64,000 nt of DNA, from contig NC_004432.1 of assembly GCF_000011225.1 (NCBI RefSeq), positions 744,001-808,000 of the forward strand, written 5' to 3'. Positions 10,366 through 62,306 of this stretch are shown one piece after another. The stretch comes from Malacoplasma penetrans HF-2. GTDB taxonomy: Bacteria; Bacillota_I; Bacilli_A; Mycoplasmatales; Mycoplasmoidaceae. Numbering within the stretch: position 1 is the first letter of the stretch; the number at the start of each line of letters is the position of its first letter. Below the pieces are notes generated by a model that worked only from the letters and a program-made list of their open reading frames with translations, did no database searches and was not told the DNA's origin. Made by a program: the position numbers and the translations under genes.

Positions 10366-10420
10366 TAAAAAATAAAATATTTGTGTATAATAAGAATTGT
10401 AAAAAAGACAAATTTACACT

Positions 10421-10456
10421 ACAGCAGAATAAGTTTCTTATTCTGCTGTTTTTATT
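10421..10456 (+). terminator. terminator between permease paralogues 1 and 2
   Basis: Perfect 12-bp stem ACAGCAGAATAA / TTATTCTGCTGT with a GTTTC loop and a T-rich tail. It lies 56 bp past the stop of paralogue 1 and before paralogue 2, which therefore needs its own promoter. A TATAAT at 10386-10391 lies just upstream of the hairpin. The remaining bases up to 10565 are A+T-rich with no gene. Confidence 0.8.
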
Positions 10457-10565
10457 TTGTCTTTAAATCTGTTATTAAAAACAAAAAATATTTTTTAAAT
10501 AAATCAGCAAAATATTTTAAAATGTTTAATTGATATTTTTATTAATTAACTTTTAAAACATAAAA

Positions 10566-12707
10566 ATGAAAAAACTTTTAAATTCAAAAATTAAACAAAT
10601 AAATATAGAATCAATCAAACATTCTTTATCCAATGTTTTTAATAAAGAATGTTTTACTTTCTTATTTGTTTTATATATTAAGAAAATTAGTTATTACATA
10701 GCTATAGCACTTTATCAATTACTGCTATTAGTATTTATATGTTTATCATTAATAATTGATGTTCAACCAACATACTTTTTTTCTAATCCAATAACTATTA
10801 CTTTTTTAATATTCTTATTAACAGTGGTTGCCTCTTATATAACTATAGATATTTATAAGACACCCATTGAAGATGGATCAGAACTTATAATAGTTAGTAA
10901 ACCACTTAATAGGTCAAGTATTTTTATTTCTAAGTTATTTATCATTTCAATATTTGGTTTGATTAATTCACTAATATCAATACCTATAGTTTCAATTGTT
11001 TTTTCTTTTCCAAATTCAGTTCATTCATATTCTTTAATTGCATTGTTAGGAATTCCTACAGCAAGTTTAGTAATCTATTTAGCATTTTCTTCAATTTCAT
11101 TATTTGCATCTATATTTTTTAAAAAAGCTATTGCACTAGTAATAGTTTCTGTTTTCAATGTAATTATGTTGTTCTTTTCTATAATTAATATCTTTGTAGT
11201 AGATATTCAATTAAAGAATGACAATACATTTGCTACAAGTTATAAAATCCAATATCCATTAGTTCTAGATAATCAAAATAAAATAGATGAAATAAAGGTT
11301 GTAAAAAGTTCAAATAACATTGATTTTAAAAATACCTATTTAACTTACTTTGATAAAAGAACATATCCAAAATTAACACCAATTAATTTTTACCAACAAC
11401 TAAGCAATATGTATGGTTTAAATAGAGAATTTGCTTATTTAACAGATGAAAGCTATATGGGGTATAGTACTTTAAATTACCCTTTCTATTATGAATTTGA
11501 TTTATCTAAAAATGCTTTAACAATAGATAAACTAAATCTACATTTAAATTTGAATGTTAATACAACTAATAATAATTTTTCAATTCCTTTTTATTTTGGT
11601 TTAAATTCATATTCATCTTCTTATTTATATTTAGGTGAATATATAGAAAAATCTTCAACTGAAGAGAATACTCAAAACAACAATGCTAATAATAATCAAA
11701 CTAACAACAATGGGACAACCAACCAAGATTCACAAGATGAAAGTAAGTTTGAATATAAATCTCAAATTTTTGATGTTCAAAATTTTTACAATACAACTTT
11801 TAAAAATTATATAAATCAAGAAAACAGATACTTTACTGAAAAAAGATGAAACACAGATATTGAAGAATCTATGTTGAATTATATTAAAAAGAAAAATACT
11901 CATTTATATACAGATACAAGTGAATCTGTAAGTAAATCTATTTATGGCAATACTACCAATAAAGATTTTCTAAATTACTATGGTTTCTTTTTAACATTAA
12001 CAAAGATTTCAAAAAGTGCACTATCTTATATGTTTGGTCAATACTATGACAAAAGCAATATGAGTCAAAGATTAGTTTTAGATGAAATAAATAGATTGTT
12101 TTTTAAATTTTTCTATTCTTCAGATTTTAATATCAATACTCAAGATATTGATAGAATCATAAATGAATGAACTCTTCTTTTAACAGAAGATAAAACTACA
12201 TCTACTCCAACTGACAACAAAGAATCAGAAAAAGAAAAATTCTTCAATGATAATAAAGATATATTAATTAACTTAATAAAGCTAAATCTAATAGGATTTG
12301 ACTTAGCTAGAATTTTTTATGGCTTTAATGATTTAAAAGAAAACAATGAAATAGATACTTTACCTAATGGTAGTACGGTTTGAAGTTATTTAAATCCACA
12401 AAATAACAAAGCCGATCTAAACAGCATTTATAATAAAATTATGAATAATTATTTAAATCCATATTCTAGTTTATATAAAAGTATTTTCTATGAATATTTA
12501 TCTGATAGTTCAATGAAATATGAAGTTACATACTTTAGAAATTTTTATAGCCCAACACCACTCCAATATGATGAATCATCTAACAGTTACTTTTTTACAT
12601 CAAGAAGTTATTTTGATACTGCTAGCTTATTTGTTGGTTGAGTTTTATTCCCAACAATTCTTTTTTATATCTCATTTTTATTTTTTAGAAAAAAAGATAT
12701 TTTTTAA
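10566..12707 (+). CDS. ABC-2-like permease paralogue 2, intact
   Basis: The one intact member of the three-copy array, 713 residues with UGA as Trp. Seen: spans near residues 40-60, 70-90, 115-140, 150-175 and 185-205; the ABC-2-type loop IYKTPIEDGSELIIVSKPLNR between spans 2 and 3; an extracytoplasmic domain of about 470 residues with an Asn/Gln/Thr-rich linker near 370-400; and a C-terminal span ending FLFFRKKDIF. Such proteins normally pair with an ABC ATPase to export lipids, peptides or drugs, but none is adjacent. The ATG at 10566 lacks a clear ribosome site, as do the other two copies. The family assignment rests on topology and the loop motif; the substrate is unknown. Confidence 0.7.
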
Positions 12708-12799
12708 ATATATAAAAAAATTAATTGTATAAATTTAAATATAATACTCTAAAATATAAAGACATTTTTATTGCTTTATATTTTTATTAAGAACTCAAA

Positions 12800-14852
12800 A
12801 TGAAAAAATATTTAAATTGAAATAAGAAACTAAGTTCATCAATGAACTATGTTAAAAATCATTTTAAGAACATGTTTAATAAACACTGTTTTATTTTTTT
12901 ATTTGTCTTATATATTAAAAAAGTAAGTTACTATGTTTCTATCTTACTTTACCAAGCAATAATAATATTGTTTATTTGTTTGTCATTAATTAGAGGTGAT
13001 GAACCTACATATTTTTTTGCTAACCCAATATCAATTACATTTTTAATTTTTTTACTAACAGTTATATCTTCTTATATTTCAACAGATATTTATAAAACAC
13101 CAATTGAAGATGGATCAGAGTTATTGATTGTTAGTAAACCATTAAATAGAGCAAATATCTTTATTTCAAAAATATCTATTATTTCTATGTTTGGATTAAT
13201 TAATGCATTAGTTGCTTTACCTGTAACTGCAATCTGTTTTGCTTTCCCTAATTCTGTTCATTCATATTCTTTAATTGCTTTATTTGGAATCCCTATAGCT
13301 TCACTAGTAATCTATTTAGCATTTGCTTCTATTTCATTATTTATCTCTATATTTTTGAAAAAGTCATTAGCAACTAATTACTGTTTCAATATTTAATATT
13401 ATTATGCTGTTCTTTTCAATTATTAATATCTTTGTAGTAGATATTAAATCAAAAAGTAATAGTTCTTTTTCATCAAGTTATAAAATCAGTAATGTTTTAA
13501 CAATGGATGAAGATAATGAAATTAAACAAACCAATGTAATATCAAGTAACAGTCAGAATGATTTTAAAGAAGATTATTTAAACAACTATAGCAAGAGGCT
13601 TTATCCAAAACTTATACCAATTAACTTTTATCAACAACTTAGTAATATGTATGGATTAAACAAACAATTCACTTATTTATCTGATGAAAGTTATATGGGT
13701 AATGCTGATTTTAACTACCCATTTCATTATAGTTTTGACTTTTCTAAAAATGCTTTGACTCCAGAAAATGTCACTCTTAAATTAAATTTAAATGAAGGTG
13801 TAGACAATGGTTTTTCAATACCCTTTTATTTCACTCTAAGTTCTTATGACTTTTCTTATCTTCAATTAGGTGAACACAAAACAATTAATTTTGGTGGCAT
13901 TGATTATGAAGCACTGGAGTGAGATTTTATTCAATCACAAAATAAAGGTGATAATAGTTTTTTAAATTTTATGAAAGAAGATAATAATTATTTCAATCAA
14001 TCAAACTGACTATCAAGTGCAGACAAAGCTATACACCAATATATCACAGATAAAACAAGTCCTTTATATGAAGACACTAGATGATATGTAGAGAATGCAA
14101 GTTTTGATAATGATATTAATTTTTTAAACTATTATGGTTTCTTTATTAATATCTCAAAGTTATCGAAATACACTTTATCTCATTTATTTGTAAACTATTA
14201 TGATAGTAAATCTATGAGTGAAAAAGATCTTTTAATTCAATTAAATAAATTAGTATTAAGTTTTCTAAATGAGAAATTATTTGAAGTTAATATAAAAGAA
14301 ATCAATGAAGCAGTACAAGAATGAGCTTCTTTATATCCACAAACTCCAGGAACTTATAAAGCAACAAGAAATGCAGAAAAAGAAGAATTTTATAATAAAC
14401 ATAAAGATACACTAATAAACTTAATAAAGCTAAATATGTTAGGTTTTGATCTAGTTAGATATTTTTATGGATTAGATGAAATGCTAGGTAATAAAGAAAT
14501 TTCTTCTTTACCTCAAACTGCAGCAATCTGAGAATATTTTGATCCAGTTAATCAAGCTAATGAAAATAGTGTTTATAACAAAGTTATGAATGATTATCTT
14601 AACCCTAATTCTAGTTTGTATAGAAACTTTATTTATTACTATGTTGATTCTTCAATAAAATATGTTGCCTCATATTATCAACTTTTTTATAAACCTGTTT
14701 CAACACCATTTTTAACAAACAAAGAAGATAATTATACTTTTACTATAGAAAGTTATTTTGATACTAGTTCATTGTTTATTGGATGAATCTTATTTCTGAT
14801 CTTATTAAACTATGTTTCTTTCTTACTGTTTAGAAGAAGAGATGTTATTTAA
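12800..14852 (+). pseudogene. ABC-2-like permease paralogue 3, frameshifted
   Basis: Third tandem copy, with the same architecture: IYKTPIEDGSELLIVSKPLNR, PINFYQQLSNMYGLNKQF in the outer domain, and a final LFRRRDVI. Start at 12800 (MKKYLNW), with UGA Trp codons throughout. An extra A near 13373 (GCA ACT AAT TAC against CTA ATT ACT in the siblings) ends the first frame at 13396; the rest is open in another frame from about 13376 to 14852. The lesion is a different event in a different place from that of copy 1. A -10-like TATAAT lies about 55 bases upstream. Confidence 0.75.
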
Positions 14853-14878
14853 AAATATTAATTAAACTATACTAATTT

Positions 14879-14911
14879 AAAAACTCTTTTGGTAATTCCA
14901 AAAGAGTTTTT
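14879..14911. terminator. bidirectional terminator between permease array and surface cluster
   Basis: Perfect 14-bp inverted repeat AAAAACTCTTTTGG / CCAAAAGAGTTTTT, loop TAATT. It lies between two convergent genes, 26 bp after the plus-strand stop and 42 bp after the minus-strand stop, and is A-rich and T-rich on both sides. Confidence 0.85.
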
Positions 14912-14953
14912 AAATACATAAACATTTTTATTTGACTTCTAAATTAGCAGTTA

Positions 14954-17509
14954 TTAGTTTATTTTAAATGAAGAATTGGCAGGTGCTAAATAATAATCTG
15001 CATTTGAAGAAAATACTGCAGTTCTAGAAATTGCTCAAGAAGATAACACATAATCTCCAGAATCTAAAAATGGTATTACATAGTTATTACTAGTTGATGA
15101 ACTTGTAGTAGTTAAACTATTGTAACTTGGTTCTAATAAGTATACTCTATCATCCGATACATCAGTGCTTTCAATATTAATCATAACTCTTCCTACATTA
15201 CCTCCATTTGCAGCTGAACCACCAATTGGTAAAGTTGCTAATCAAGCCTTAAGATCAGGAAGTCCTCAATTAGGACCATTACTTGTATTACCAGCAGCAA
15301 AATCAATTGATTTAGTAGTAGAACTTGAAAAAGGAGTTCCAGCTTTTACTTGATAGCTATCTAAATAACTATTCTCTACATTTACACCCAAAGATGATAA
15401 GAATGTCTTAGATTTAATTATGTTAGTGCTAATACTTGGATTAATTCCATCACTTCCCATGAATCAATTGTATTTATTATTGTTTGCATATAATCAAGGA
15501 TGTTGAGTTTTCACTTGATTTAAAATAGTGTAAACACTTTCATTATAGATAACGTTATTTTTATAGTTTGCTGATCCACTTCCACCACTAGTAGTAGAAT
15601 CACCAAATAAAGCTTTTAAATATCCATTGTATGTTGAAATATTATTAGCAGTTGTAGTAGTTCCATTAGGATTGATTGCATTAACTACAATGATTACTTC
15701 AGGATTTGCTTCTATTGCAGCATCTACTATTTTTTTAATATTACTTTCAAATGTATCTTTATTAGTATTAGTAGTTTGACCATTACTAGTTCCTGTAGTT
15801 AAATCATTTACACCCAGTCCAATTGATAAAACATCAGGAGCATATTTAGTAATTCTTGATTGAATTAAATAATCATCTGCTGCTCTATTAGTAAAGTCAC
15901 CACTCATTGCTGCATTAATGAAAATATCATCTCATCTACCTCAATCACTTTGAATGCTTTTTTGAGTTACTTCACTAAAACTATCAAAGCCAACATTGTA
16001 TTGAACACCTTGGTCAACATTATCTCCAACTCAAGCTCAAACCATTGGTTCATTCTTATTATTAAATTTTTCTATAAATCTTTTTTGAGCATCAGTTAAA
16101 TCAGTTGGAGTTGAATCTAATAATGTAGTTGAATCTGCTGAAGTATTTCCTAAAACCCCTGTAAGACGATCATATGGCTGATTATTAATATCAAATACAG
16201 TCAATTCAAATTTATTAGTATATGCTTGATTTGTAATTGGACTAGTACTTGTTGTTGGAAATGTTCCAATATTATCAATTGTAATAACTTTATTTGTTAC
16301 AAATGAATAGTCTTCTATTGTTAGTCCAGCATCAGGTATTTCTAAAATATATTTTAAATATTGTCCTTCAACTGCATTTGGAATTTCTACAGATAAATTA
16401 ACAACAGGTTGGTCACTATAAGAAGTTGTAGATTGTGTTGTAGTTTGAGTTACTGTTCCTAGTTGTAAATTGTTTTTAGTAGTATCTACTGCTCCATCAA
16501 GTGTAGTAGCTTCTATAAATTCTGTTTCATAACCATGTCAAGCAGATTCAGGATCTTCAATAGTTCCTTGAGTTCAAGCATTTCCTTCATCAAAAGCCAT
16601 TACTAATTCTTTTCCTAATAAACTGTTTGCTCATCTAGCAATAATGTTGTGGTTATCATCAAATGGTCATTCAGTTTGTGAATCAATATGGTTAATAAAT
16701 AAATCTGTTCAATCAATTACTTTAACCCTTGAAAGTGATTCACTTCATGTTTCATCAACTGACATATTGTATAAAACTTTATTTACTACATTATTGAACT
16801 TATCTACTTTGTTATTATAAGCAGTATCAGTATCAAAATCTTTAATAGGGGATTTTCAATGTTTAATAATAGTCACAGTAGATGATTGATCTCTTAACAT
16901 TAAAGAGTTTTTTACAAATGTAGTTAAATCATTTTCAAAAGACACTAAAGAATTATATTCATCACTTGCTTCTAAATACTCATTACCAACAATTGTGACA
17001 ACATTCTTAGGATCTAAATTACTAACTTTAGAATTAAACTTTTCATTTAATTCTTTAAGAGTTTGATTAGGTTTAGAAACATTTATAACAAATCTACCCA
17101 TTGTAGAATATAAACTTGCAGGATTGGATGTATTTAAAACTTTGTAATATCATCTGATATTTTCATCAAATAATCCTACTCAGTTTTTTCTACTTTTAGT
17201 TAAATCAAAATTAGAATAGAAATCACTTCCACCAGCAAATACTCAAGTGTTTTCAATAGCTTTTTGAAAACGTAAGTTCGCTTCTGCTCTATTAGAAATT
17301 CTATCTTCATTAACACCTCAAGTTGCAATAGAAGATGATACATCTTTCCCAGTTTCTGGTAATGGATAAACTACATCATAATCAATTGGTCCAGATCTTT
17401 GATTAGTTCAAAAAACTTTTGAAGCTACAAGTGGTGCTGCAATTACTAATCCACCAGTTAAAAACATTGTGGAGATAAAAGCTATTCATTTTATTTTTTT
17501 TGAAGCCAT
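14954..17509 (-). CDS. membrane-anchored SGNH-hydrolase-fold protein, catalytic Ser and His replaced
   Basis: 851 residues with many UGA Trp codons. Seen: N-terminal signal anchor (residues ~6-30, no lipobox Cys), a ~450-residue N-terminal region, then an SGNH/GDSL-type domain from about 490: VWAWVGDNVDQG (block I), AAMSGDFTNRA (block II), PDVLSIGLGVNDLT (block III) and GSDGINPS (block V). The block I Ser is Asn (GDN) and the block V His is Asn (DGIN), so hydrolase or transferase activity is probably lost while the fold is kept. It is closely related to the protein at 21413-24070, which keeps both residues. Last gene of the cluster; AGAAAGG precedes the start. It could act as a binding subunit. 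Confidence 0.78.
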
Positions 17510-17572
17510 TGTAAATACCTTTCTTTTAAAAAAATAATTTTGTATTTAAATTAATGATTGACCACTTTGAAA

Positions 17573-17800
17573 TTAATATGGTCTTTCATCTCCACCACCT
17601 GAAAAGTTTCCACCAGGTGAATTAGAATTTCCATTATTAGAGTTAGCACCATTATTTTGATTATCTTGTTCATTGTAGATATTGTTTCTTTGATCTAAAT
17701 CAAATAAAGCTGGATCTGCACAAGATGTTAAAACTAATGGAATACTAGCTGCTGTAACTATAGCTGGTATTAACAGCCAAAATTTTCATTTCTTTGACAT
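17573..17800 (-). CDS. small surface lipoprotein A with PGGNFSGGGDERPY tail
   Basis: 75 residues: basic N-terminus, hydrophobic signal, lipobox LTSC (Cys near 27), an Asn/Gln-rich linker, and the C-terminal tail PGGNFSGGGDERPY. The same 14-residue tail ends the lipoprotein at 24384-24605, whose linker differs. AAGGAG precedes the start. It sits between the SGNH lipoprotein and the Ser-less SGNH protein on the same strand. No known family; the shared tail suggests it is a recognition or attachment segment (inference). Confidence 0.8.
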
Positions 17801-17814
17801 AATGTTTCTCCTTA

Positions 17815-19509
17815 TTAATTTTTACCTTGTACAGAATCTAATATAGTTTCAATTCTTGAATTTAATGTAGTAGTTGTGCTTTCATCTTCAGTTTCTGATT
17901 TTGGAGGATCTGGAAAATTTTCTCCTAAAACTGTTAGTAAGTTCTTTGCAAATGTAACATATGCAGTGCTTTGATAATGTAGTAAATCAGAAGCATAAAT
18001 ATTTGATTGATAATTTGGATCTATTTCTAAAACTTTATCTACTACACTTGCTAAATCATTCAAGATTACTTTTGAGTTGCTTTTAGCAAAGTTTTTAATA
18101 GCAACATTTGCATTACCAATTGCTGTTTTAATTTCATTAGTTACTGTATCTGATTTTGGAGTAGGAATTGTAGAAACCACAATTCAAGCATTTTTATTAA
18201 CACTTTCTAAATCAGTTAAAGTTTTATTTAGATAATTACTAAAGTAAGTATTAGTAATTTTAGAAGCAGTTGATTCATAATAAATGTCATTAATCCCCAT
18301 TCATAAATGAACAACATCTGGAGCATATCCTAAAAAGTTATATCCATAGTTTTGACTACTATATTCTAATGAGTATTGGTTAGAGTGAATTCCCATGTTT
18401 ACTACCAAATCATCTGGTCTATTTCAGTCATGTTTTAAATATCACTTAAAGTATTCATATAATCCACTATAACCTCTAGTGAAATAACTTCCATTAGTTA
18501 ATGAGTCACCCACAAATGCTCATTTTAATTTTGAATTGTTACTTAAATAATTTTTAAAATTTATAACTTTAGTAGAATCTGCAGTTTGCAAATATGAAGT
18601 TTCTTTTGTAATTGTTTGGTTAATAACATCTGCTTTAATATCATCAACACTAGAAGTTCATTCAGCAATTGAAGTATGCTTTGGATACAAAGAATCTACA
18701 AATATATTTAGCAATTCTAAAGTTCCATATGGAGTTAATAAATTACTTGAATTTATTCCAATAGATTTAAAGTTAGCATTATCAGTATTTTTTGAAACAT
18801 CTACTAAACCAATTCTGCTAAACAGATCAGCATCATCTGCAAATGATAAAACTACTTTATCAATTATGCTGTTTATTAAATCTACAGAGTTATTAAAGCT
18901 AGAATCATTAGTCTTGTAGTGCTTTTGAATAATTACCATTCCTTTATTTTTATTTTGACTAGTTCCATTTAAAATAAATCTTTTTAGATTGGTTTCAAAT
19001 TCTGTTGTTGCACCTTCAGTACTTAAATTATTAATATCAGCTGAATCTACAACTAACACTGAAGTTTTAATATTATTGTCTTTTACTAAACCATTATAAT
19101 CATTCACAATTGTAGCTAATGTTTGATCTTTAGAACTTAAGTCAAATACAAATCTTGATCCAATTGTTCTTCTTTTAGAAGCAGTATCAAATTGATAAGG
19201 ACTACTATCTAATTTATAAGGCCCATTGTATCTCATGTAATCTGAGAATAAATCAACATAAGATCTGTAAGCATTATTTTGATAAATATCATAATTAAAT
19301 AAATCATTACCACCAAAGAATCCAAAGTTATTATTCATCTCACCACTTTGCATTGCACTTTGTATTTTTGTTCCTAAATTATTATTAAGTGAGTACAAAC
19401 CATCTTTTTTATAAACAGAAGTTTCTTCTTCAGTTTTAGTACAACTTGTTAAAACAATTGGAACCACTAAAAGAGGAGAACTTAATGCTAACAATCAATT
19501 CTTTTTCAT
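17815..19509 (-). CDS. SGNH/GDSL-hydrolase lipoprotein
   Basis: 564-residue lipoprotein (signal with lipobox VLTSC, Cys near 23) whose C-terminal part is an SGNH domain: WAFVGDSLTNG (block I, Ser near 334), VVNMGIHSN (block II), VVHLWMGINDIYY (block III) and ASDLLHYQST (block V Asp/His near 505). All expected catalytic and oxyanion residues are present, so an esterase or acyl-transferase acting outside the cell is likely. The first 270 residues repeat a similar layout with FGGNDLFN and are perhaps a second, degenerate SGNH-like lobe. The start at 19509 is one base from the stop of the acyltransferase gene upstream, implying coupling. The ribosome site is weak (AAAGAAA). Confidence 0.8.
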
Positions 19510-19510
19510 T

Positions 19511-21403
19511 TTATTTCTTTTGATCATCTACAAATAAAACCTCATATCTTTCTAGCATTAATAAAGACTTACTCATATTCACAAATGCATTTCAAGGTGG
19601 TAAAGCAGTAATCAATCTACTTAATAAATCATATATAAGAGACATCATAAATAGTGCTGTTGCTAATAATGCAAATATCAACAATACATGAACTGCTCAT
19701 AAGTTTGGTTCAGCTACCCAAGCTCCAGTCATAAACACAACTGGTTGTCTCATTAAAGTTCTCATAATGTAACTTAATCACATATCACCAAGATCAGAGT
19801 CTGCAGAACTATACATAATGAATGTTTTTCCTAATTGATTTCAGTGTAACAAGAAGATTAATAAAGTTAATGTAGATAAATAATTTACATATTCATTTTT
19901 CTTTTTTAATTTCATATTGTAGAACATTCCAAATAATGAAATTGCTGAAAGAATAACAAAAGGATTTGAATATTCATATAACATGTTTGAGTATGTTCAA
20001 ACAATCATTAAGTATTGAATTCCAAAAGTTACTAAATATGTAATTGTTCATCCATATCATTTAAATCTTCTAAAGAAGTCATGAACAATTAGTCATTGCA
20101 CAATTACATAAATTACTAAGAAGTTAATAACATTGTAACCTCTGTTTGTAACCGCATCTCTTATTCCATAATTTCCAAAAATTCCAAGAGAGCTATCTCA
20201 TAAACCTCTACCTGCAAACATAGCCAATAGTTTTCATAAAATGAAAACAATCATTACTACTAAGAATGCGATATTAACACCATTCTTTGTAAGTTTTTTA
20301 AACATATAGTTCACAAATGGAACTATCATTAAGAATGCAAAGTAAGCTGTAAAGTATCAAGGGTCTTCAATGAAGAATCAAATAATTGAATCAATCCAAT
20401 CTTCATAACTAATTTTAGTAGGTCACACAATCCACTTAAACACAGTCATCATTAATAAGATGAATGTAATTTGTAAATATAATTTAATTAATTTATAAAA
20501 CTTAATCTTGAGTGGTTTGTTCTCTAAAAAACAGGAGATAACCACAAATATATTTACACAAGGGATTGATAGAATTTGAAAGAAATGAAGATAATAGGCA
20601 TTATTTCCAATTATTGGATATAGCGCTTCAATTGACCCACCATTGTTAGAAGCTCATCCAAGAGGTGATTGAATAGTATGCGTTAATACTACTAATAGAA
20701 TTGCTAATATCTTTAATCAAGATAAATTAGTTTCCATTTTTCCATATTTAGTTAAATTGAAATTCTTTTGGATAGCATCTTTAAATTTTGGTATAGTGCT
20801 TACTTTTGTTTCTTTTTGATCTGTTAATTGGATTTGTGCAGTTGGTTTGTCAGGCTCTTTTATTAATTCAACATTAATATTGGAGGATCCACTTTTTTCT
20901 AAAACAATCTTTATATCAGGTTCAACTTCTGGTTCTGGTTTAACTGATTCAGATAAAGAATTAATTGGAATTTCACTTTTTGGTTCTTTTGATAATAAAG
21001 TTTCATTTTTATCAGAAACTTTTACTGGATCTATTTTTAAGCTATTTTTATTTCTTTTGTTTTTTAATATTTCATCTTCAACTTCTGTGCTTTTAAACAT
21101 AGTTCTTAAATCTTCATTTTCACTTGAAGATTCTTTATTTAATTTGGTTTTTAATAAACTAGGTTTTTCATTTTCCTTATTTTCAAGATTTAATGATTCA
21201 TCACTTTTTTTATCTTGTTTAGATACATCTAAAGAATCTGGTTTTATTAATGATGGTTCTGCTTTTTCATTTTTAGAATTTTTATCTTTTGATTTAATGT
21301 CTTTATTTTTATTTTCTTGACCATTCAACAAATAATCTTTTTCTATTTCATCAATGACATTTTTTCTTTGTTTACTATTAAATATTTTTTTATTGTTTGA
21401 CAT
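19511..21403 (-). CDS. acyltransferase-3 family membrane protein with long charged N-terminus
   Basis: 630 residues. Residues 1-225 are hydrophilic, Lys/Glu/Asp/Ser-rich and without membrane spans. From about 228 come about ten spans, beginning WLKILAILLVVLTHTIQ, which matches the AT3 (OatA/WecH/NodX) start R/K-xxAxxLVVxxH with its essential His near 241. AT3 proteins carry acyl groups across the membrane for O-acylation of glycans; in OatA the AT3 part is fused to an SGNH domain, whereas here separate SGNH proteins flank it (9 bp upstream, 1 bp downstream). AAGGAT precedes the ATG. The cytosolic extension could bind a donor or partner. The acceptor is unknown, since mollicutes lack peptidoglycan. 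Confidence 0.78.
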
Positions 21404-21412
21404 AGTTAATCC

Positions 21413-24070
21413 TTAATTAATTGTGAATGTAGTGTCAATTGCATCATAATAACCAGCAGAATTAAATGTATAAGTTATTAATCTTGAAATTGCTCAAGAA
21501 GACATTGTATAAGTTCCAGATTCTAGATAAGGTAATACATAGTTGTTTGGATTATTTGCTGTAGTTGCATTAACAGCTAAACTTTTATATCCTGGATGTA
21601 GGAAATATGTTCTATCATCTTCAACATCAGTTCTATATATTGTTGAATATAATGAACCTACATTGCCTTCACTTTTTGTATTACTATTACCACCCATTGG
21701 ATAACTAGACAGTCAAGTTTTTATATTTGGAACAGCATAGCTGCTTCCAGTTGATACTGTAACATCAATTTTTCCTGTTGATGCAGTTGTAGTTAAAGGG
21801 TTACCTGCTTTTATTTGATAACTATCCAAATAACTGTCTTCTACATTAATTCCAAGTGATGATAAAAATGTTTTTCCTTTAATAAGATTCACTCCTCCAC
21901 CTGGATGTAATTTATCTCTAGACATAAATCAGTTGTAATTAGTTGCAGTTACTTGAGCACCAGTATAAGTTAATCCATATAATCATGGATAGTTAGTTTT
22001 TATGCTTTCTAAAGCCTCAAAAACTTCTCCATTGTAAATAACATTATTTGGATATTGATTGTTTTCTCCATCAAAGATTTCTTTTAAATAATTATTATAT
22101 TCAGCAGGAACTCCAGTTCTTCCATTAAATCCTGTTGGGTTAATACCATTTATGACAACTATTACATCAGGATTAGAAGCAATTGCAGTTTCAACCAAAG
22201 TTTTCATATTATTTTGAAATTGTTCTTTACCTGAATATACTTGTTGTCCATTGTTAACAATGTTTTGTTTATCACTAATACCTAAACCAATTGACAAAAC
22301 ATCTGGAGCATATTTTGTAATTCTAGAATGAAGCATATAAGGATCTACTGCCCTGTTAGTGAAATCTCCACTTATTGCACCATTAACAAAAATGTCATCT
22401 CATCTACCTCAATCACTTTGAACTGATTTTTGAACAACTTCAGAGAAATTATCAAAACCATAATCAAATGCAACACCATGGTCTACACTATCACCAATTC
22501 AAGCTCAAACCATAGGCTTAGATTTATCATTAAATTTTTCTAAGAATCTTTGTTTAGCAACTGATATAGTAGAAGTTGTATCTTGTGAATTATTACTAGT
22601 TGATGCGCTTGTAGAAGCACTACTTGTTATTACAGTAGAATCACTTGATGAATTTGATTTATAAGAAGGATCATCTTCTGAACCAATATTATAAATACTT
22701 GCATCATCTCCTAAAGTTCCACCAACACGGTTATAAACTAATCCATCAATATCAAATACAGTTAAATCAAAACTATTTGTATAGTTAACTCCAGAATATG
22801 GACTTACAACAGTTGTGTCATATTTTGCAATGTTATCAATTGTAATTGCACCATTTGAAACATACGAATAGTCTTGAATAGTTAAACCAGAATCAGTAAT
22901 TTCTAAGCTATATTTTAAATATTGTCCTTCAATTGCATTTGGAACTTCTACTGTTAAATTTACTAGTGGTTGGTTTTTATATGTAACAGTACTAGTATTT
23001 TCAGTTTGAGTAATTTTACCTAATGATAAATGGTTTTTTCTAGTATCAACTGCAGCATCCATTGTAGTAGCTTCAGTATAAGAATTACTAAAATCACCAT
23101 AAGTATTACTCGAAGGATCTAACTGCCCTTGAGTTCAAGGAACCCCATTATCATATGCCAGCATAAATTGACGACCCAATTTATTGTGAGCAACAAGTGA
23201 TTTAATATTATTATCTTCATCAAATGGTCATTCACCTTGTGATGTAGAATTGTCCATAAACATATCTGTTCAATCAATTACTTTAACTCTGGTTAAACTG
23301 TCTCTATATTCATCATCAATATATAAGTTGTATAAAACTTTATTAACAACATTGTTGAATTTATCAACCTTAGTATTAAATGTTTTATCCTCTTTGTAAT
23401 CTCTTAAAGGAACCTTTCAATGTTTAATAATTGAAACTGTTGAAGTTGATTCTCTTAGTGTTAAAGAGTTTTTAATAAATGTTGTTAAATCATTTTCAAA
23501 TGCAACTAATGATTCATATTCATCAGCTGCTTCAATATATTCTTTACCAACTATTGTTACCACATTTTTAGGATCAACTCTGCTCACTTTATAAGCAAAC
23601 TTATCATTAAGTTCTTTAAGAGTTTGATTTGGTTTTGATACATTGATCACGAATCTAGCCATTGTTGAATATAAAGTAGATGGATCTGAATTTTGTCTAA
23701 TCTTAAAATTTCATCTTAAGTTTTCATCAAATAATCCAATTCAGTTTTTTCTACTTTTAAGAATGTCAAAGTTTGAATAAAAATCACTTCCACCTGCAAA
23801 CATTCATGTGTTTTCAATTGCTTCTTGAAATCTTAAGTTATCTTCAGGGTTTGAAGAAATTCTATCTTCATTTACTCCTCATGTAGCAATTGAAGTTGAA
23901 ACATCACTTCCAGTTTCTGGTAAGGGATATTCAATATCATAATTTGTATTTTTGGACTTATAATTTGCTCAAAAAATTTCTGTGGCTATTATTGGTGCAG
24001 GAATAACAATTCCACCAACTAATAAAATGGTTGAAACAAAAGCAGCTCATTTTACTTTTTTAGAAGCCAT
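21413..24070 (-). CDS. membrane-anchored SGNH-hydrolase-fold protein, catalytic Ser and His present
   Basis: 885 residues, related along its whole length to the protein at 14954-17509. Seen: signal anchor at 6-30, a conserved NVSKPNQTLKEL stretch near 140, a Ser/Thr-rich linker near 500, then the SGNH domain: VWAWIGDSVDHG (Ser near 527), NGAISGDFTNRA, PDVLSIGLGISD and MSRDKLHPGG (Asp/His near 720). Block III reads GISD where GxND is expected, so the oxyanion Asn is Ser. It is followed by the AT3 gene after 9 bp, whose ribosome site overlaps its stop. The strong ribosome site GGGAGG lies within a possible switching hairpin (see 24071-24191). Confidence 0.78.
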
Positions 24071-24191
24071 TTAAATGTCCTCCCTTCTAAAGAGGACATC
24101 TAGCACAAAAATAACTAATAGTTAAATTTTATATTTTTGCAAAATAGACTATAAAAAGAAGATACCTAATTTCTAATTATTGTCCTCTTTA
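24071..24191 (-). promoter_or_regulatory. leader with alternative pairings around the SGNH gene ribosome site
   Basis: Minus strand, 5' to 3': arm A TAAAGAGGACA (24191-24181), arm B TGTCCTCTTTA (24098-24088), arm C GAGGACATTT (24082-24073). A and B match over 11 bp. B, shifted to AGATGTCCTC (24101-24092), also pairs with C over 10 bp including one G-U, and C contains the GAGG of the ribosome site 8 bases before the ATG. B cannot pair with both, so A:B would expose and B:C would hide the site. The rest of the 313-bp gap (24192-24383) is A+T-rich without a gene. The trigger is unknown. Confidence 0.5.
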
Positions 24192-24383
24192 ATTTAATTA
24201 TTAATTAAACCAGCCTTTCTATCTAAATTAAAATAGCTCACACCTTCAAATATCTAACATTTATTAACAATAACAAGTTATAAAATATTATTAATTTTGA
24301 CGATTCAAAAAATCAAAATGTGGTATATTAAAAATACTTAAAACAACCTAATGCTTCAAGTATTTTCTTGATAATATAATTTA

Positions 24384-24605
24384 TTAATATGGTCTTTCAT
24401 CTCCACCACCAGAAAAATTGCCCCCTGGTTTATTATTGTTGTTTCCAGAACCACCACTAAAGTCTGGAAGTTGTGGGTTTGTTTCTTCTTTATTATTTGC
24501 AAAATAAGTTGCGGGGTCTGGTTTACAAGAAGTTAAAACAATTGGACCACCAATGGCAAAAATTCCTAAAGGTATAATAAATAATAATTTTCTTTTTTTA
24601 GACAT
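24384..24605 (-). CDS. small surface lipoprotein B with PGGNFSGGGDERPY tail
   Basis: 73 residues: KKRKLLFIIPLGIFAIGG signal, lipobox VLTSC (Cys near 27), a Pro/Asn/Gly linker and the C-terminal PGGNFSGGGDERPY, identical in its last 14 residues to the lipoprotein at 17573-17800. AGGAG precedes the start. It lies 9 bp after the gene at 24615-26519 and is probably co-transcribed with it. The pairing of one such lipoprotein with each of the two long SGNH proteins suggests a duplicated gene set. No known family. Confidence 0.8.
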   Translation of the reverse strand: MSKKRKLLFIIPLGIFAIGGPIVLTSCKPDPATYFANNKEETNPQLPDFSGGSGNNNNKPGGNFSGGGDERPY

Positions 24606-24614
24606 AGTAGACTC

Positions 24615-26519
24615 CTAATTAGAAGTTATCTCTTCAATTTTATTTATATTACTTTTTTTATTTTTTTGTTTTCTTTTCCTTACCAAAACTATAGATGTAG
24701 TTATTGCAATTAAAATTATGATTACACTTGGAACTAATACTCCTAAAATTATTTTGATGGTGTTATCTTCTTTTATTGGGTATTTATATGAAACTCCTAG
24801 ATTATTAGCAAAGTCTTTAATGCTTATAATATCTTGTTTATAGTTTGGAAAAACATTTAATTGATAAAAAGGTTCATGAGACTCTTCAATTCTTTTTAAA
24901 TTATTTGACAGTGTTTGAAGTGGTAAATAATCATAAGATTGAGTTGGTCTTACCACATTAAAAGTAGCAGGAACCGGAAAATTAGAAGCATTTACAGTTT
25001 CATAGGCTAAACTTTGATTTCACTTGTGAGTATTAGTTAAATAAAAATAAGTTGTTTCTATAACAGTACTTGAATACTGCAAACCTACCAAACTTGTTCT
25101 TAAATAAAAACTGCTTACTAAATCTTTATCAAAGAATGGAATATAATTTTGATTCGTTTGTTGTTGATAGTTATCTCAAGATAAAAACACTTCTCAAGGA
25201 AATGATTTAAATGTAATTGGATTAAAGTTATTCGGAAATATATAATCAATTAATGCTTCTTGATCTGATACTGAATATCTTGGGTGATGTTTTATGATTC
25301 AGTTGTACTCACTTGGTTTATATTTTTTTAGCATTGCAGTAGTTAGAGCCTGTAGTTCTTCTTGTCTTTGACTATACATTTCAGATGGATCTGTAATTAA
25401 AGAATCTCCTATTCAAATAATATTTTTCTTACTAGAACTATAACTGATTGCATTTCTTTCAAAAAAATCTGTAATTGAGTGAATTGAAGAAAAATTAAAG
25501 AATGATTGATATCTATTAATAAAACTATTAAATTTTGTTGCATCACTTCCAAAAAAAGTTTTTCCCATATTGTAATAATCATAATCAATTGGATAAACAT
25601 CATAAAAGACAGAATTGTTACCTAGCAGATAATATGGTGAATTTGAATATGATTCAACATTAAACATAGTTATAAAATCACTTGCTAATAAAAAATCATA
25701 AATCTTAGTGTTTTGAAATTTAGAATAGAGTGAATTATTAGTATCTGTTTGATATTGTTTTATTAAATTACTAGCTTCAGTTGAAGTTAGTTGTTTATAA
25801 TTTGATTCATTAGTTCTATCTTGGAAGTATTGTGCAAAAAAGATAGTTTGATAATTACCATCTGAAATTATGTTGATTTTATTAACATATTTTAAAAAAT
25901 TATAAAAGCTAACACTATTATCACCTTTTCATAAATCTTCAATATTAATATCTGAAACTCATAAATCGAATTTAACACTACTTGAAATTTTAGTAGTGTA
26001 ATAAGATACTAATTCATCTAACATTTGATCATCAATTCAATTAGAGTACTTTAAATCAGGTCCATTATTAAAATTAGTATTTGTAATTAATTTAACTTTG
26101 CTACTTGCAGGGGATAAATTATAAAAATCAAAATTCCATTTTTTATTATTAACATCTGTTTGATTTGCAAGTCATACAATTCTAGGTTCAGTATTTGAAT
26201 CACTTGTTGTGGCATTTTTGAAATTATCTTCTTCAATTCAGTAGTTAGTAAAAATTAAAGATTGTTGGTAAACCAAAGTTACATCTCTAGTAAAAACCAA
26301 TTGAATATTAGTGTTGTTAACAGGTTTTTTAATTTCTTCTATTCATTTTTCTGTAGAGTTTGTAGCTTTAGTATTTTTTAAAGAATTTGAATTTAAAGTG
26401 CTTTTATCATAATTAAAATTTTCATTTTTAACTGCTGTTAAAAATAATTGAGGAGTTAAAGTAATGATGGCTAAAGAGAAAGAACTTAGGCCAATTCATT
26501 TTAAGGATGATATTTTCAT
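24615..26519 (-). CDS. membrane-anchored surface protein with polysialyltransferase-like GT-B core
   Basis: 634 residues, UGA as Trp. An N-terminal signal (residues ~5-28) and a C-terminal span (~598-620) followed by RKRKQKNKK predict an anchored protein with most of its mass outside the cell. The core reads NIIWIGDSLITD (~365-376), then IIKHHPRYS about 40 residues later, FPWEVFLSW and SLVGLQYSSTVIETT. The order G-x-L, KxHPR, P-x-E, Ser-Ser resembles the GT-B domain of polysialyltransferase/GT52-type enzymes. A GDSL string is also present but lacks the other SGNH blocks in order. A paralogue at 58979-63235 is disrupted. It is the first gene of the minus-strand cluster; AAGGAG lies 10 bases before the ATG. 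Family assignment is by motif only. Confidence 0.6.
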
Positions 26520-26589
26520 GTCACTATTCTCCTTACTTAAATTCTATTAAAAACAACTAATCTTATTAATTTTTAATTTCTGGACAATA

Positions 26590-26622
26590 AAAAATCTTGA
26601 GTTTTATTTACTCAAGATTTTT
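26590..26622 (-). terminator. terminator after large lipoprotein 1
   Basis: 13-bp perfect inverted repeat AAAAATCTTGAGT / ACTCAAGATTTTT with a 7-base loop, T-rich on the minus strand afterwards. It separates the large lipoprotein gene from the downstream surface cluster, which must have its own promoter in 26520-26589. Confidence 0.8.
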
Positions 26623-26656
26623 ATTAAATAATTGCTAAAGATTAAAGTTAAACTAA

Positions 26657-29518
26657 CTAAACTCCACTTACACTGAATACAAAATCAGAATAATTCTTAG
26701 AAAAATTATTTACCAATCTCTTATTAGTTACATCATAGAAATTAACTGGTAAAAACAGATTAGATTTAAATAAGCCAGCACTTAAAGAAATTGTTGGATG
26801 AACATCAACACTAACTAAAGAAACTGTAACTTGAAATTCTAACTTGGTTGAAAAATTAAATAGTGTATTAAATGAATAATCCAAACCATATTCTAGATTT
26901 TTAAAGTTAGAATTTAAATCAGAGAAAGTAAACATTTTATCTTTCATAGTTTTTAAGTTTGTTAGGTTTGTAACTGGCATAATACCGTTTACAACTTCAG
27001 AATCTTTATTAGCTCACATTAATGTATTTGAATCTTTTACTTGCTCATCAGTAAATCTACTGTTTTCTTCCTTAAAATTTTCAGCTTTAGATAAGTCAAA
27101 CATAGTTTTAATTTCATTTACATTAACATTATTTACATTATTAACAAAAGATAAATTAGTGTAATAATAGTTAGGATTGTAACTTGAATAATCTGCAATT
27201 TTTGTAGAATAATCAGATATATAAAATCTAGAATTTATATCATAACTTCTCATTAATACATTTTGGAAAATTGATTTTCAAAAATCATAGTATCAAAATT
27301 TAAATTTAGCTGTTGCTATTAAAAGTATTCTCTTACTTGCCTCAAAAACACCTTTAACATAATTACTATTAGAAGCTATGGTTTTTCATAAGTTTGGATC
27401 ATCATAGAAAATATTTAAACCATATCCAACACTAAAACCTAAATAATAATCAGATCCTTTCTTTTCGGGACTAAATCATATTTCTTCATTATCACCACTG
27501 TATGTAAAAATTAATGCATTAGTATCTTTTCCATTCCCGCCAAACACAAAGTTATCAGGTAAAAAATTAAAAAGATATTTTTTTAAATCTGGATAAATAT
27601 TACTTTCAGCTAGTGATGCATTAGTTCCAGAAAGATTTGCTATTTTATTAATAAGAGTATTAAATGATTCTTGTGAAATAATATTTTTTAATGGAACCAT
27701 ATCTAAGGTTACAGCAGTTGAAATAGAGGCTTTAACTTCATATTTAAAAGTAGTTGTTATTAAATTGTTTTGCTTATTAACAACAGGATTATTAACTCAA
27801 GTTTTTGCAAAACTTAAATTTTTATATCTTTGATCAAATGATGTTTTATCAGTTGATTCTGTTTTATATTCAAACAAACCTTTAAAGAAGTTAGCAAAAG
27901 ATTGAATTATCTTTTGAAAGTTTGTTTTATCAAAACTTTTGTTATTAACAAACAAAATATCAATGTATTCACCAACATTAGCTGGTAACAAATTTTTAAT
28001 AGCATTAATTACTTTTTGTTTTGCTTCATCACTACCAAACATTGAATCATAAATTGATCCATATTCATTAGCTGATGAATCTTTTGTAAAGATTATTGTT
28101 AATAAATCAATTAATGAAGTTAAAGTTGGATTATTTTTAGTTGCTTCTTTAATTTTTGCTAAAATTGTATCTAAATTAGTTCATAAAATATCTAATAAAC
28201 TTTTTGCTTGTGAAGTAACTCCTAAAATATCTCCTGTAATCAAATTTCTAATAGGATCATCTTTACCCACAAATTGACCAACATATTCCATAATTAATTT
28301 GTAACTTGAATTGTCAGCTGTCATATTGGTTTCTAAGTTTTCTAATAGTGGTTGAACAATATCATATGCACTTCCTAAATAAGATTTAAGAATAGATAAA
28401 ATTTTGTTTTTATTATTAACAATTACTTGAATTAATGTGTTTGAATTTGATGAACCATTAGCTGTTATTGCTTCTTTTAAAATTGCATCAATACCATCAG
28501 GAATAATGCCTATCTTTGTAATGATATCAATTAAATATAAAGCAGACTTTTCTATTAGTTTATTAACAGGTTGATCAATTGCAATTTCATTAATTAAATT
28601 ATTTGCTAGATCCATATAGTCAAAATATAAAGAAGTTTCTCTATTAATTTTTTCTTCTAAATACTTTTTAATACTTTCACTATTAATGCTTTGTCCAAAA
28701 TCTTTTTGATATTTTTCTTTTAAATCAAAATATGTTTGTTTTTCTGATAGGTCATTAAATGAAAAATAAAATGCTTTAGAAAAAGAATTTTCTGTTGGTT
28801 TAAAATTTAAGATTTCAAAATCTTTATTGTTAAAAGAAACAAAAACTTTATCTAACACTCATCCAAGATAAAACTTTTGTCCATGCTTTTGAATAGTTGG
28901 TTTAAGAATTTGTTCATCAGCTTTAATAGTTAAAGTAAGACTAGTATCTTTTGGTAAAGAAAACTTTTCATCCCCTATTACAAAATCAGATAATTCTTTA
29001 GAACTTACTTTAGCTTCTAATTCGAAACTAATCTTAGTTTTGTTAAAAACAAGTTTATTATTTGAATCTAATTCTGTAAAACTTACTTTCTTAAGATTAG
29101 AGTTAGTGATAGAAACAGTTTTATTATTCACATAATATAAATGGTTTAAATAACCTAAAATATCCTCAGGGATTTTTGCTTTATCACCTAAATATTTTGA
29201 GAAATCACCATTAATTCCAAAATCATTATAGTTTTGAGTTAACCCATATTCATTGGGTTTTTCTTCAACTAAAACCATATTACTTTCAATCTTTTTAGAT
29301 TCAACAATACTTGCATCAAGTGTTCCAAAGCTATTCGAACCATTATTGTTATTATCACTATTTGTAGAATCATTAAAATCTTTAGGAGGAGTTTGACTTG
29401 CATCATAACTAAAATCATTATTGTTATAACTACATGAACTTAGTGGGATTGCAATAGTAGCTCCAGCTAGAAAAACAGAAAATAGTTTAATTAAAGATCT
29501 TTTATTTTTCAATTTCAC
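26657..29518 (-). CDS. large surface lipoprotein, paralogue 1
   Basis: 953 residues, not recognised beyond being a mollicute surface lipoprotein. Seen: KNKRSLIKLFSVFLAG signal with lipobox LSSC (Cys near 29), an Asn/Ser/Asp-rich linker (30-70), then a long mixed region with repeated conserved islands shared with its neighbour: DQPVNKLIEKSALYLIDI, LSILKSYLGSAYDIV, DPIRNLITGDILGVT, SFDQRYKNLSF, and RSYDINSRFYISDYSTKIAD. About nine UGA Trp codons. The tandem copy downstream in coordinates is alike over its whole length, so one arose by duplication. A third, decayed copy lies at 46078-48150. No enzymatic motif was seen; adhesion or antigenic roles are guesses. Confidence 0.8.
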
Positions 29519-29596
29519 TATGAAATCTCCTAAAAATAATTATTGGTAAATTAAAGTATAACTTAGGAATTTCATAAAACAAATATCACAATATAA

Positions 29597-29628
29597 AATC
29601 ACTCAAACATTGCTTAGTTTGAGTGATT
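29597..29628 (-). terminator. hairpin after large lipoprotein 2
   Basis: 12-bp inverted repeat AATCACTCAAAC / GTTTGAGTGATT, 8-base loop, followed on the minus strand by a short T run. It lies between the two tandem lipoprotein genes, so each may be transcribed separately. Confidence 0.65.
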
Positions 29629-29666
29629 ATCTATGTGTGTTCTAGATATCTTAGATATAAGATAAT

Positions 29667-32519
29667 TTATAATTGAGCATTAAATGAAATGTCAGAATAA
29701 GTTTTTTCAAAATTAGTAATTAATTTTTTATTAGTCTCATCATAAAAATTAACTGGAAAATATAAATTAGATTTAAACATTGAAATATTAAAAGAAATTA
29801 TAGGATGAACATCAACATTTCCAACACTTGCTTTAACCTGAAATTCTATTTTTGCTAAGAAATTAAATAAAGTATTAAAAGAATAATCAAGATTATATTT
29901 AGTTAAAATAAAACTAGAGTTGTTTGTAGTTAGTGAAAACATTTTTTCTTTGATAGTTTTTAAATTACTTTCACTTGTTAATGGAGTTATACCTTTTACT
30001 TCTTCAGTTGCTTTATTACCTCAATTTAAAGTATTAGGGTTTTGAACTTTATCATTTTTAATTGTGCTAACTTGGTCTTTAAAATTTCCAGTCTTTGATA
30101 AATCAAACAATGTTTTGATTTCACTAACATTTACTTGATTAGCATTATTAACAAAAGATAAATTAGTGTAATAATAGTTCTCATTATAGTTTGAGTAATC
30201 TGCAATTTTTGTAGAATAATCAGAGATATAAAATCTTGAATTTATATCATAACTTCTCATTAATACATTTTGTAAAATACTTTTCCAGAAGTTGTAATAT
30301 CAAAATTTGAAATTAACTTTTACAATAAGTGCAACAGTTTTTGTTGTCTCAAAAACTTCTTTATTAAAATTATTAGAACTTGCAATATTTTTTCATAATT
30401 GAGGATCATCATAAAAAATATTTAAATTGTATCCAATGCTTAATCCTAAGTAAAAATCAATTCCTTTTTTATCAAGGTTAAATCAAATCTGCTCATCTTT
30501 ACCACTATATGTGAAAATTAATGCATTTGTATTTTCTCCATTAGTTCCAAATTTAAAAACATCAGGAACATAATTTAAAAGGTGTTTCCTCAATTCAGGA
30601 TAAATCTGACTTTCAGCAACAGTTGCAACTACACCTGTAAGATTAGCTAATTTCTTTACAATTTTATTAAAAGCATCTTGTGTGATAATTTCTTTAATTG
30701 GTTTAATATCTAAATCAACTGCATTAATAATTGAAGCTTTAATTTCATAATTAAAAGTTGTTGTAATAACATCTTTTTTAGTAACAGTTGGTGAAGTTAC
30801 TCAAGTTTTAGTAAAACTTAAATTTTTATATCTTTGGTCAAATGATGTTGTATCATCAGCATCTGATTTATGCTCATATAATCCTTTGAAAAAATTAGCA
30901 AAAGATTTAGTTATTTTTAACATGAGTTCTTTATTAACTGCACTATTATCAATAATTAAAATATTTAAGTATTCACTAATATTTGCAGGTAATAAACTTA
31001 CTATTGAATTGATAAATTTTTGTTTTGTTTCTTTACTTTTAAATAATGAATCATAAATAGAAACAAATTGATTAGATGTTGAATCTTTTGTAAAAATAAT
31101 TGTTAGCAAGTTAATTAATGATGTTAATGTTTTATCATTTTGAGTAGCTTCTTTAATTTTATTTAAAATGGTTTCTATATTACTTCAAACAATATCAAAT
31201 AAACTTTTTGCACTAGAAGTAACTCCTAAAATATCACCTGTAATTAATTTTCTGATTGGGTCATCTTTACCAACAAATTGATTAACATATTCTAAAAGTA
31301 ATTTATAACTTGGATTGTCTTCTTTCATATTAATTTGTAAATTAATTAATAAAGGTTCTACAATGTCATAAGCACTGCCTAAATATGATTTAAGAATAGA
31401 TAAAATCTTTTCTTTATTATTAACAATTACTTCCAATAAAGTTAATGATTTGTTTGAACCATCTATCTTTATTGCCTCTTTTAAAATAGCATCAATTCCT
31501 TGAGGTATAATTCCTATTTTTGTCACTATATCAATTAAATACACAGATGCTTTTTGTACAAGATAATTCACTGGTTGATCAGTTGCAATTTCATTAATTA
31601 AATTATTTGCAATGTCCATATAATCAAAATACAAAGCAGTTTCTGAATTTATTTTTTCTTCTAAGTCTTTTTTAACACTTTCATTTGAAATTTGATTCTC
31701 AAAATCTTTTTGATATTTTTCTTTTAAATCAAAATATGATTGCTTATCTGATAAGTTATTAAAAGAAAAATAAAATGCTTTTGAAAATGAATTTGCAGTA
31801 GGTTTAAAATTTAAGATTTCAAAATCTTGATTGTTAAAAGAAACACTAACTTTATCTAAAAATCATCCTAAATAAAATTTTTCACCTTGCTTTTCTATAG
31901 TTGGTTTTAGGGTTTGATCTACTGATTTAATAATTAGAGTAGAACTATGATCTTTTGCTAAATTAAACTTTTTATCCCCTATTACAAATTCAGATAACTC
32001 ATTAGTAGAAACTGTAACAACAAGTTCAAAACTGATTTTACTTTTGTTTAAAATAAGTTTATTGCTAGCATCAACTTCTAAAAATTTAAGATCTTTAATG
32101 TTTGAATTAGTAAAAGAAATTTGCTTATTATTTTTATAATATAAGAAATTTAAGTACCCCAAGATATCTTCATAGATAATAGATTTATCTCCTAAGTATT
32201 TATTAAAACTACCATTGTTAGCAAAATCCAAATAATTTTGAGTTAGCCCAAAATCATTTGGATTTTCTTGTTGTAATGATAAATTATTTTGAACCTTTTT
32301 TGACTCAACAATACTAGCATCTAATATTCCAGAATTATTTGATGATCCATTATTATTGTTATTATTTTCATTATTAAAATCTTTTGATGGTGTTTGATTA
32401 GCATCATAATTAAAAGCATTATTACTATAACCACATGAGCTTAAAGGGATAGCAATTGTTATTCCAACTAGAGACAATGATAGCATTTTAATAATATTTT
32501 TCTTATTTTTAAAATTCAT
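29667..32519 (-). CDS. large surface lipoprotein, paralogue 2
   Basis: 950 residues, full-length paralogue of the preceding lipoprotein. Seen: signal ending in lipobox LSSC, an Asn-rich linker (about 12 Asn near residues 45-60), and the same islands: DQPVNYLVQKASVYLIDI, LSILKSYLGSAYDIV, DPIRKLITGDILGVT, SFDQRYKNLSF and RSYDINSRFYISDYSTKIAD. The central and RSYDINSRF blocks are nearly identical between copies, while the N-terminal third and the last ~100 residues diverge. No frameshift. It is divergent from the arcA operon, sharing the 32520-32815 intergenic region. Confidence 0.8.
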
Positions 32520-32815
32520 ATGAATTACCTGTTATTTAGTAAGATACCTTGTTACCCAAAGTATAACTTTACTAAATTAACAAACTTAATACATTTGATT
32601 TAACTTTTTATAATTAGTGCAAGATAAGATGCAAAATATTTCACAATTTAAGCATTGCAATTAATAAAAAATAAAAATAAATTAAAAACTTGGTTATTAC
32701 AATTGCACTAAATATTTTAAATAAGATTTATTTCAAACCCCAAAATAGGAGTATATTAAAATTGTATAGGTTGCCAAGCCTATGCACTCAAATTTCTATT
32801 TTTATAGGAGGCAAA
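32520..32815 (+). promoter_or_regulatory. intergenic region and arcA leader with hairpin
   Basis: A 296-bp A+T-rich gap between divergent genes, with no gene seen. Near arcA, GTATAGGTT (32764-32772) pairs with AGCCTATGC (32777-32785) around a GCCA loop (9 bp with G-U pairs), the only G+C-rich stem in the gap. The strong ribosome site AGGAGG follows at 32806-32811. I could not assign a confident -35/-10. The hairpin could be a regulatory or stabilising leader element. Confidence 0.4.
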
Positions 32816-34048
<1,233 letters not shown>

Positions 34049-60064: not shown

Positions 60065-60123
60065 CCCGTGAGGACTTAACTAAAGAAATGGGGATTTTTA
60101 TAATTTCTCTAATAGGGGGAATT

Positions 60124-61500: not shown

Positions 61501-61501
61501 A

Positions 61502-62263: not shown

Positions 62264-62306
62264 AACCCTTTTAAATAAAAAAAGTTAAGTCCCACATTTA
62301 TACTAA

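Follow-up and report, generated by a model that had tools for sequence, protein, structure and literature searches.

What would a bacterium without a cell wall do with a membrane acyltransferase and several extracytoplasmic SGNH proteins encoded side by side? The question is raised by a cluster of seven minus-strand open reading frames (ORFs) in Malacoplasma (Mycoplasma) penetrans, a mycoplasma of humans, running from position 26519 down to 14954 of the window, the 64,000-nucleotide (nt) stretch of DNA analyzed here (genome 744001–808000). In order, the ORFs encode P0007 (labeled "GT-B-like"), small lipoprotein B, P0005 (SGNH), P0004 (AT3-like), P0003 (SGNH lipoprotein), small lipoprotein A and P0001 (dead SGNH). 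The AT3-like acyltransferase is accompanied by three SGNH-type proteins of two domains each, a pair of small lipoproteins and an anchored GT-B-like protein. We favor, at somewhat better than even confidence, the reading that the cluster is a split AT3/SGNH machine for surface acylation. Translated with code 4 (TGA = Trp), all ORFs are present, with 22, 1, 7, 15, 18, 0, and 12 in-frame TGA codons in P0001 to P0007, respectively, and their shared strand, coordinates and order agree with a first-pass annotation made from the DNA sequence. The gaps, described there as mostly 1–15 bp, had to be corrected to 9, 313, 9, –17, 14, and 63 nt from the end of P0007 to P0001.

The assignment of P0004 to the AT3 acyltransferases held, as the protein matches Pfam Acyl_transf_3 (PF01757) with an E-value of 1e-10 and 41.7 bits, above the cutoff of 31. 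The His of the first transmembrane helix (TMH1), H242, is kept in all five homologs. Published AT3 motifs include the arginines of R-x10-H in TMH1 and of RxxR in TMH3 (PMC9833829). Both signatures have Lys in P0004 (K231, K304, and K307) and in 5/5 homologs, with the charge kept, and we use the term "AT3-like" because the R-x10-H Arg and the RxxR motif are replaced in this way. Two other families of the AT3 clan typically have Lys at the position of the TMH1 Arg (PMC12423673). The hydropathy profile has nine overlapping peaks, compared with the about ten transmembrane helices expected of an AT3 protein. A search of solved-structure sequences with the AT3 profile returned nothing useful, and no homologs of the P0004 AT3 were found on plasmids.

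The SGNH assignments were likewise upheld. P0001 (38.5 bits) and P0003 match Pfam Lipase_GDSL_2 above the cutoff, and SGNH-type matches were found in all members of the two SGNH families (11/11 and 7/7). P0005 falls slightly below the cutoff (31.4 versus 32.9 bits), but its predicted model, confident only in parts (mean predicted local distance difference test [pLDDT] of 50), has an SGNH fold at residues 502–742, with Z of 17.5 and a root-mean-square deviation of 2.5 over 194 residues to 4q9a. GDSL lipases and acetylxylan esterases head the list of fold matches; peptidoglycan O-acetylesterases matched at Z of 15.5 and 15.0 (Ape1 at 15.0) and PatB at 13.7–14.1.

P0003 carries a lipobox and a complete Ser342-Asp514-His517 set plus Asn413. 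Its block II residue is Ser382, where its six relatives have Gly; the block II residue of Streptococcus pneumoniae OatA is also Ser, and Staphylococcus aureus OatA retains Gly and Asn (PMC9487903). P0005 has Ser528, Asp719 and His722 and the block II Gly568, but Ser599 at block III, where 7 of the 11 homologs of its family have Ser or Thr. Absence of the block III Asn is shared with the O-acetyltransferases AlgX/AlgJ and PatB1, whose oxyanion holes are unusual, and AlgX/AlgJ use a block III hydroxyl (PMC9487903), as Ser599 might. P0005 differs from AlgX, a circularly permuted protein, in keeping the normal order, and from PatB1, which relies on a block II Arg, in having Gly at block II. The known marks of transferases do not decide whether these SGNH proteins are transferases or esterases. 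P0001, previously described as Ser-less, has Asn497 in place of the nucleophile and also Asn690 in place of the catalytic His; with Asn at both catalytic positions and yet a Pfam family match, we call it a catalytically dead SGNH homolog. Both families are built in two parts, and their N halves, which are catalytically degenerate, are homologous to each other (hhalign probability of 99.7% between families). The N and C halves show weak colinear similarity (E-values of 1.9e-4 for the P0003 family and 0.021 for the P0005 family), and we take the N half to be a putative degenerate second SGNH domain.

Comparison of gene order in related mollicutes, suggested as a check in the first-pass annotation, showed that the parts stay adjacent in other Malacoplasma while their order is rearranged. 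The AT3 protein was found in 5 of the 10 Malacoplasma genomes and, at the given sensitivity, in none of 85 other genomes of the family; the P0005 family and strong matches to the SGNH lipoprotein (E < 1e-90) were each present in 6/10. The order is GTB–lipoprotein–SGNH fragment–SGNH–AT3–SGNH lipoprotein in genome G029, SGNH–AT3–SGNH lipoprotein–GTB in G025, and AT3–SGNH lipoprotein–GTB–lipoprotein–SGNH lipoprotein in G023. G027 and G028 have SGNH lipoprotein–GTB–lipoprotein at contig ends, and in G028 the AT3 position would fall between a contig ending in an SGNH gene and one starting in the SGNH lipoprotein. The blocks are thus rearranged yet adjacent at 30–64% protein identity. AT3 and SGNH are separate ORFs in M. 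penetrans and in the relatives read, where the OatA-type fusion is absent. The distant G024 (L014, L065, and L066) encodes several P0005-type SGNH proteins and one AT3, with no GTB-like gene and no small lipoprotein.

AT3-SGNH pairs were also looked for across the order. Among 320 genomes scanned, at least 44 had an AT3 match, a lower bound because the same scan missed the AT3 of the window itself. At 30 AT3 loci outside the cluster type, the profile of these SGNH proteins, which would miss other SGNH types, found no relative within 1.5 kb. As MBOAT proteins gave no match in the 10 Malacoplasma genomes, AT3 is the only partner of a known type found.

In a serious rival reading, the SGNH proteins work at the surface as esterases or phospholipases that take host lipids or acyl esters beside the P116-type proteins, and the AT3 protein acts alone on something unrelated. 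SGNH/GDSL proteins are most often esterases, the top fold matches of P0005 agree with that, M. penetrans has a recorded phospholipase A1 activity (PMC7954426), and two P116-family genes lie upstream of the cluster. However, the adjacency of AT3 and SGNH is conserved in the relatives, where the P116 genes were not seen adjoining the cluster, and in M. penetrans a hairpin divides the two. We consider this explanation rather unlikely.

The feature of the cluster that its sequences make most telling, and that the first-pass annotation did not mention, is at the end of the small lipoproteins. Both M. penetrans copies carry lipoboxes, and strong matches to them (E-values of 4e-24 or better) occur only inside clusters: two in M. 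penetrans and one each in G023, G027, G028, and G029. All six end in Pro-Tyr. They do not count as six independent events, but the M. penetrans pair stands well apart from the other four. Among 255 other ORFs of at least 200 aa in the loci, 13 have a terminal Tyr and none a terminal Pro-Tyr. The six proteins have a common lipobox, D-P-A right after the lipidated Cys and the final Pro-Tyr, whereas the middle is a Ser/Asn/Gly-rich, low-complexity region differing in length and composition. In the genes for lipoproteins A and B, the last 27 nt are identical and the codons just upstream have silent differences.

By analogy, a flexible, lipid-anchored arm tipped with Tyr, whose gene lies among those for AT3 and SGNH proteins, would suit the role of an acyl shuttle. 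In MBOAT systems, the C-terminal Tyr of DltX or PatA picks up the acyl group at the membrane enzyme and passes it to the Ser of the SGNH protein; OatA does this with an internal Tyr of its AT3 part (PMC12148441). We tentatively propose, as a possibility well short of an even chance, that the small lipoproteins are a DltX-like relay in an AT3 system of a wall-less bacterium, their terminal Tyr being loaded by the AT3-like protein and unloaded by the separate SGNH proteins. Alternatively, they could be the acceptor, Ser/Asn-rich surface proteins modified by the GTB-like protein and the acylation enzymes. Such a role would suit the low-complexity middle and the position of the small lipoprotein gene 3′ of the GTB-like gene in five of six cases. 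Against this, neither the sequence nor the length of the middle is conserved, yet the final two residues never vary, a pattern better suited to a functional tip than to a modified middle, and a GT-B enzyme on the outside would lack nucleotide-sugar donors; we regard the acceptor role as improbable. Still less credible is that the genes are mere neighbors with no common task, surface-protein genes gathered by duplication and rearrangement: the sample is few genomes of a single genus, several of them fragmented metagenome-assembled genomes, and SGNH and GTB-like paralogs occur elsewhere too, but adjacency is maintained at the identities above despite rearranged blocks, and the small lipoprotein is found only within the cluster.

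A split surface acylation machine would be a variant of established systems. With the fused AT3-SGNH O-acetyltransferases OatA and OafB it shares an AT3 membrane part, an extracytoplasmic SGNH part and the conserved TMH1 His, but it has a separate AT3 and several SGNH proteins, Lys in both Arg motifs and no peptidoglycan or O-antigen to acylate. PatA-PatB-Ape1, made up of an MBOAT, an SGNH transferase and an SGNH esterase, also combines separate membrane and SGNH proteins in one cluster, and the P0005 fold matches PatB and Ape1; here an AT3-like protein takes the place of the MBOAT, the membrane protein has no C-terminal FxYxxF, and peptidoglycan is absent. What recalls DltB-DltX-DltD, the system for D-alanylation of teichoic acid, is a membrane-anchored microprotein that has an invariant Tyr near the C terminus and whose gene accompanies those for a membrane acyltransferase and an SGNH protein. 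In place of a transmembrane peptide, however, the cluster has a lipoprotein, with the Tyr as the last residue in ...PY, and it has neither FxYxxF nor an MBOAT; we do not file the small lipoproteins, going by their sequences, as DltX members.

In the mechanism that we propose, the AT3-like protein would draw on acyl-CoA in the cytoplasm for an acyl group, most likely acetyl, and present this group at the outer face, as its family and TMH1 His suggest. The anchored P0003 and P0005 would receive the group on Ser and then transfer it to an acceptor or remove it, like the PatB/Ape1 pair for peptidoglycan, and the dead paralog P0001 may bind or organize the substrate. The small lipoproteins would set a flexible arm with its C-terminal Tyr beside the enzymes, an arm that may, in the tentative role given above, carry the acyl group from AT3 to SGNH like DltX. 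The extracytoplasmic AT3 and SGNH assembly of the first-pass annotation thus gains support from family matches, one SGNH fold, catalytic residues and gene order.

Several observations weigh against the machine or its arm. P0004 has Lys in the Arg signatures described as essential for AT3 proteins, and P0005 lacks the block III Asn, from which known O-acetyltransferases also deviate (PMC9487903). The lipoprotein tail is without FxYxxF, its gene mostly lies 3′ of the GTB-like gene and not of AT3, and in G024 AT3 and P0005-type SGNH proteins occur without small lipoprotein or GTB-like gene. We found no report of acyl transfer for the cluster in the literature.

The cluster would, to our knowledge, give the first indication that a mycoplasma O-acylates a surface polymer enzymatically, and a literature search found no paper on this. 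An AT3/SGNH split in a wall-less bacterium would be a variant of the established AT3/SGNH kind, provided that acylation is indeed its function. How AT3 proteins without a fused SGNH domain hand over the acyl group, and whether they need a partner, are open questions in the field (PMC9558356). In the cluster, a bacterium without a wall would offer an AT3/SGNH system that is split by nature and includes a candidate for the hand-over; if the tyrosine arm is real, an acyl-tyrosine relay by a separate microprotein would have arisen in the other acyltransferase superfamily too.

A paralog of P0007 suggests that the acyl groups most likely go to a polysaccharide, either capsular or secreted. The GT-B label of P0007 could not be confirmed, and the fold is unproven: P0007 had no useful Pfam match, a solved-structure sequence search with its profile returned nothing useful, the AlphaFold model from four sequences had a pLDDT of 42, and one distant relative weakly matched a polysialyltransferase family (A-2_8-polyST, E-value of 0.023, below cutoff). 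P0007-like proteins, with relatives in 9/10 Malacoplasma genomes, are more widespread than the cluster, and only the cluster-type copies adjoin a small lipoprotein. One paralog (genome 809543–811339) starts ~33 nt after the gene of a GT2 membrane synthase and overlaps that of a GH53 lipoprotein (endo-beta-1,4-galactanase family) by 17 nt. Because a P0007-family protein is encoded between a GT2 synthase and a GH53 lipoprotein, we regard a capsular polysaccharide as the likeliest acceptor; the location is observed, and the link to acylation is what we infer. This operon-like group (L055:7242-13086, genome 807241–813085, from window position 63241) is a candidate exopolysaccharide locus, and another P0007-like paralog, in G083, also lies near a GT2 gene. 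The mycoplasmas listed as known producers of a biofilm or capsule, its composition unknown, include M. penetrans (PMC11658790). Other possible acceptors are glycolipids, lipoproteins and host lipids, given the recorded phospholipase A1 activity and the P116-type genes next to the cluster.

Table 1. Features of the cluster and its borders (window coordinates; aa, amino acids)
Feature	Coordinates	Strand	Details and basis
Perfect 13-nt hairpin between P116-type gene and cluster	26590..26622		Inverted repeat; divides P116 and cluster transcription units
P0007, 634 aa, "GT-B-like", signal-like N terminus, C-terminal transmembrane helix and basic tail	24615..26519	-	ORF; transmembrane-like segment 588-606; alignment
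Lipoprotein B (P0006), 73 aa, ends ...GGNFSGGGDERPY	24384..24605	-	Lipobox LTSC; C-terminal Pro-Tyr
Terminator-like hairpin after lipoprotein B	24331..24366	-	Inverted-repeat search; 15-nt arms, 87% complementary, then T run
Perfect 11-nt inverted repeat in P0005 leader	24088..24191		82 nt between arms; one copy in genome
P0005, 885 aa, anchored two-domain SGNH protein	21413..24070	-	Pfam, fold; S528, G568, S599, D719, H722
P0004, 630 aa, AT3-like membrane acyltransferase, charged N-terminal extension of ~210 aa	19511..21403	-	Pfam Acyl_transf_3; K231-x10-H242, K304xxK307
P0003, 570 aa, SGNH lipoprotein	17815..19527	-	Pfam, alignment; S342, S382 (block II), N413, D514, H517
Lipoprotein A (P0002), 75 aa, 13-residue tail identical to that of lipoprotein B	17573..17800	-	ORF, alignment
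P0001, 851 aa, P0005 paralog without nucleophile and His (N497, N690)	14954..17509	-	Alignment; 58% identity to P0005
Perfect 18-nt hairpin at cluster 3′ end, common to convergent gene	14875..14915		Inverted repeat

The features around the genes (Table 1) bear on how the cluster is expressed. Two transcription units are likely, because a terminator-like hairpin lies 3′ of lipoprotein B. The P0005 leader (24060–24240) folds as RNA with a z-score of –3.0, beating 199 of 200 shuffled sequences. Invertible promoters are known in M. penetrans. We considered one as the reason for the 11-nt repeat before P0005, but a family of such switches is unsupported because the repeat pair occurs once in the genome; an RNA hairpin is an equally plausible explanation. 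Rfam gave no match within 14000–33000 of the window, and PADLOC gave no phage-defence match.

Other members of the GTB-like family were seen apart from the cluster. In the window, a plus-strand paralog (58979–63235) is broken by an IS21-type element (IstA-like 60088–61500, IstB 61502–62263). In G022, a genome without the AT3 cluster, a gene for an HGSNAT-type transmembrane acyltransferase lies, by chance or not, near the single GTB-like gene (L056:2614-3894 and L056:5413-7422). The cluster itself is flanked by genes for surface and membrane proteins. On one side, at 26657–32519, there are two tandem P116-family genes (lipid-acquisition surface proteins). On the other, 8638–14852 encodes a set of three large membrane proteins, related to one another, in which ABC2-permease-like segments are combined with long domains on the outside. 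The third is split into ORFs 12800–13396 and 13404–14852, probably by a frameshift.

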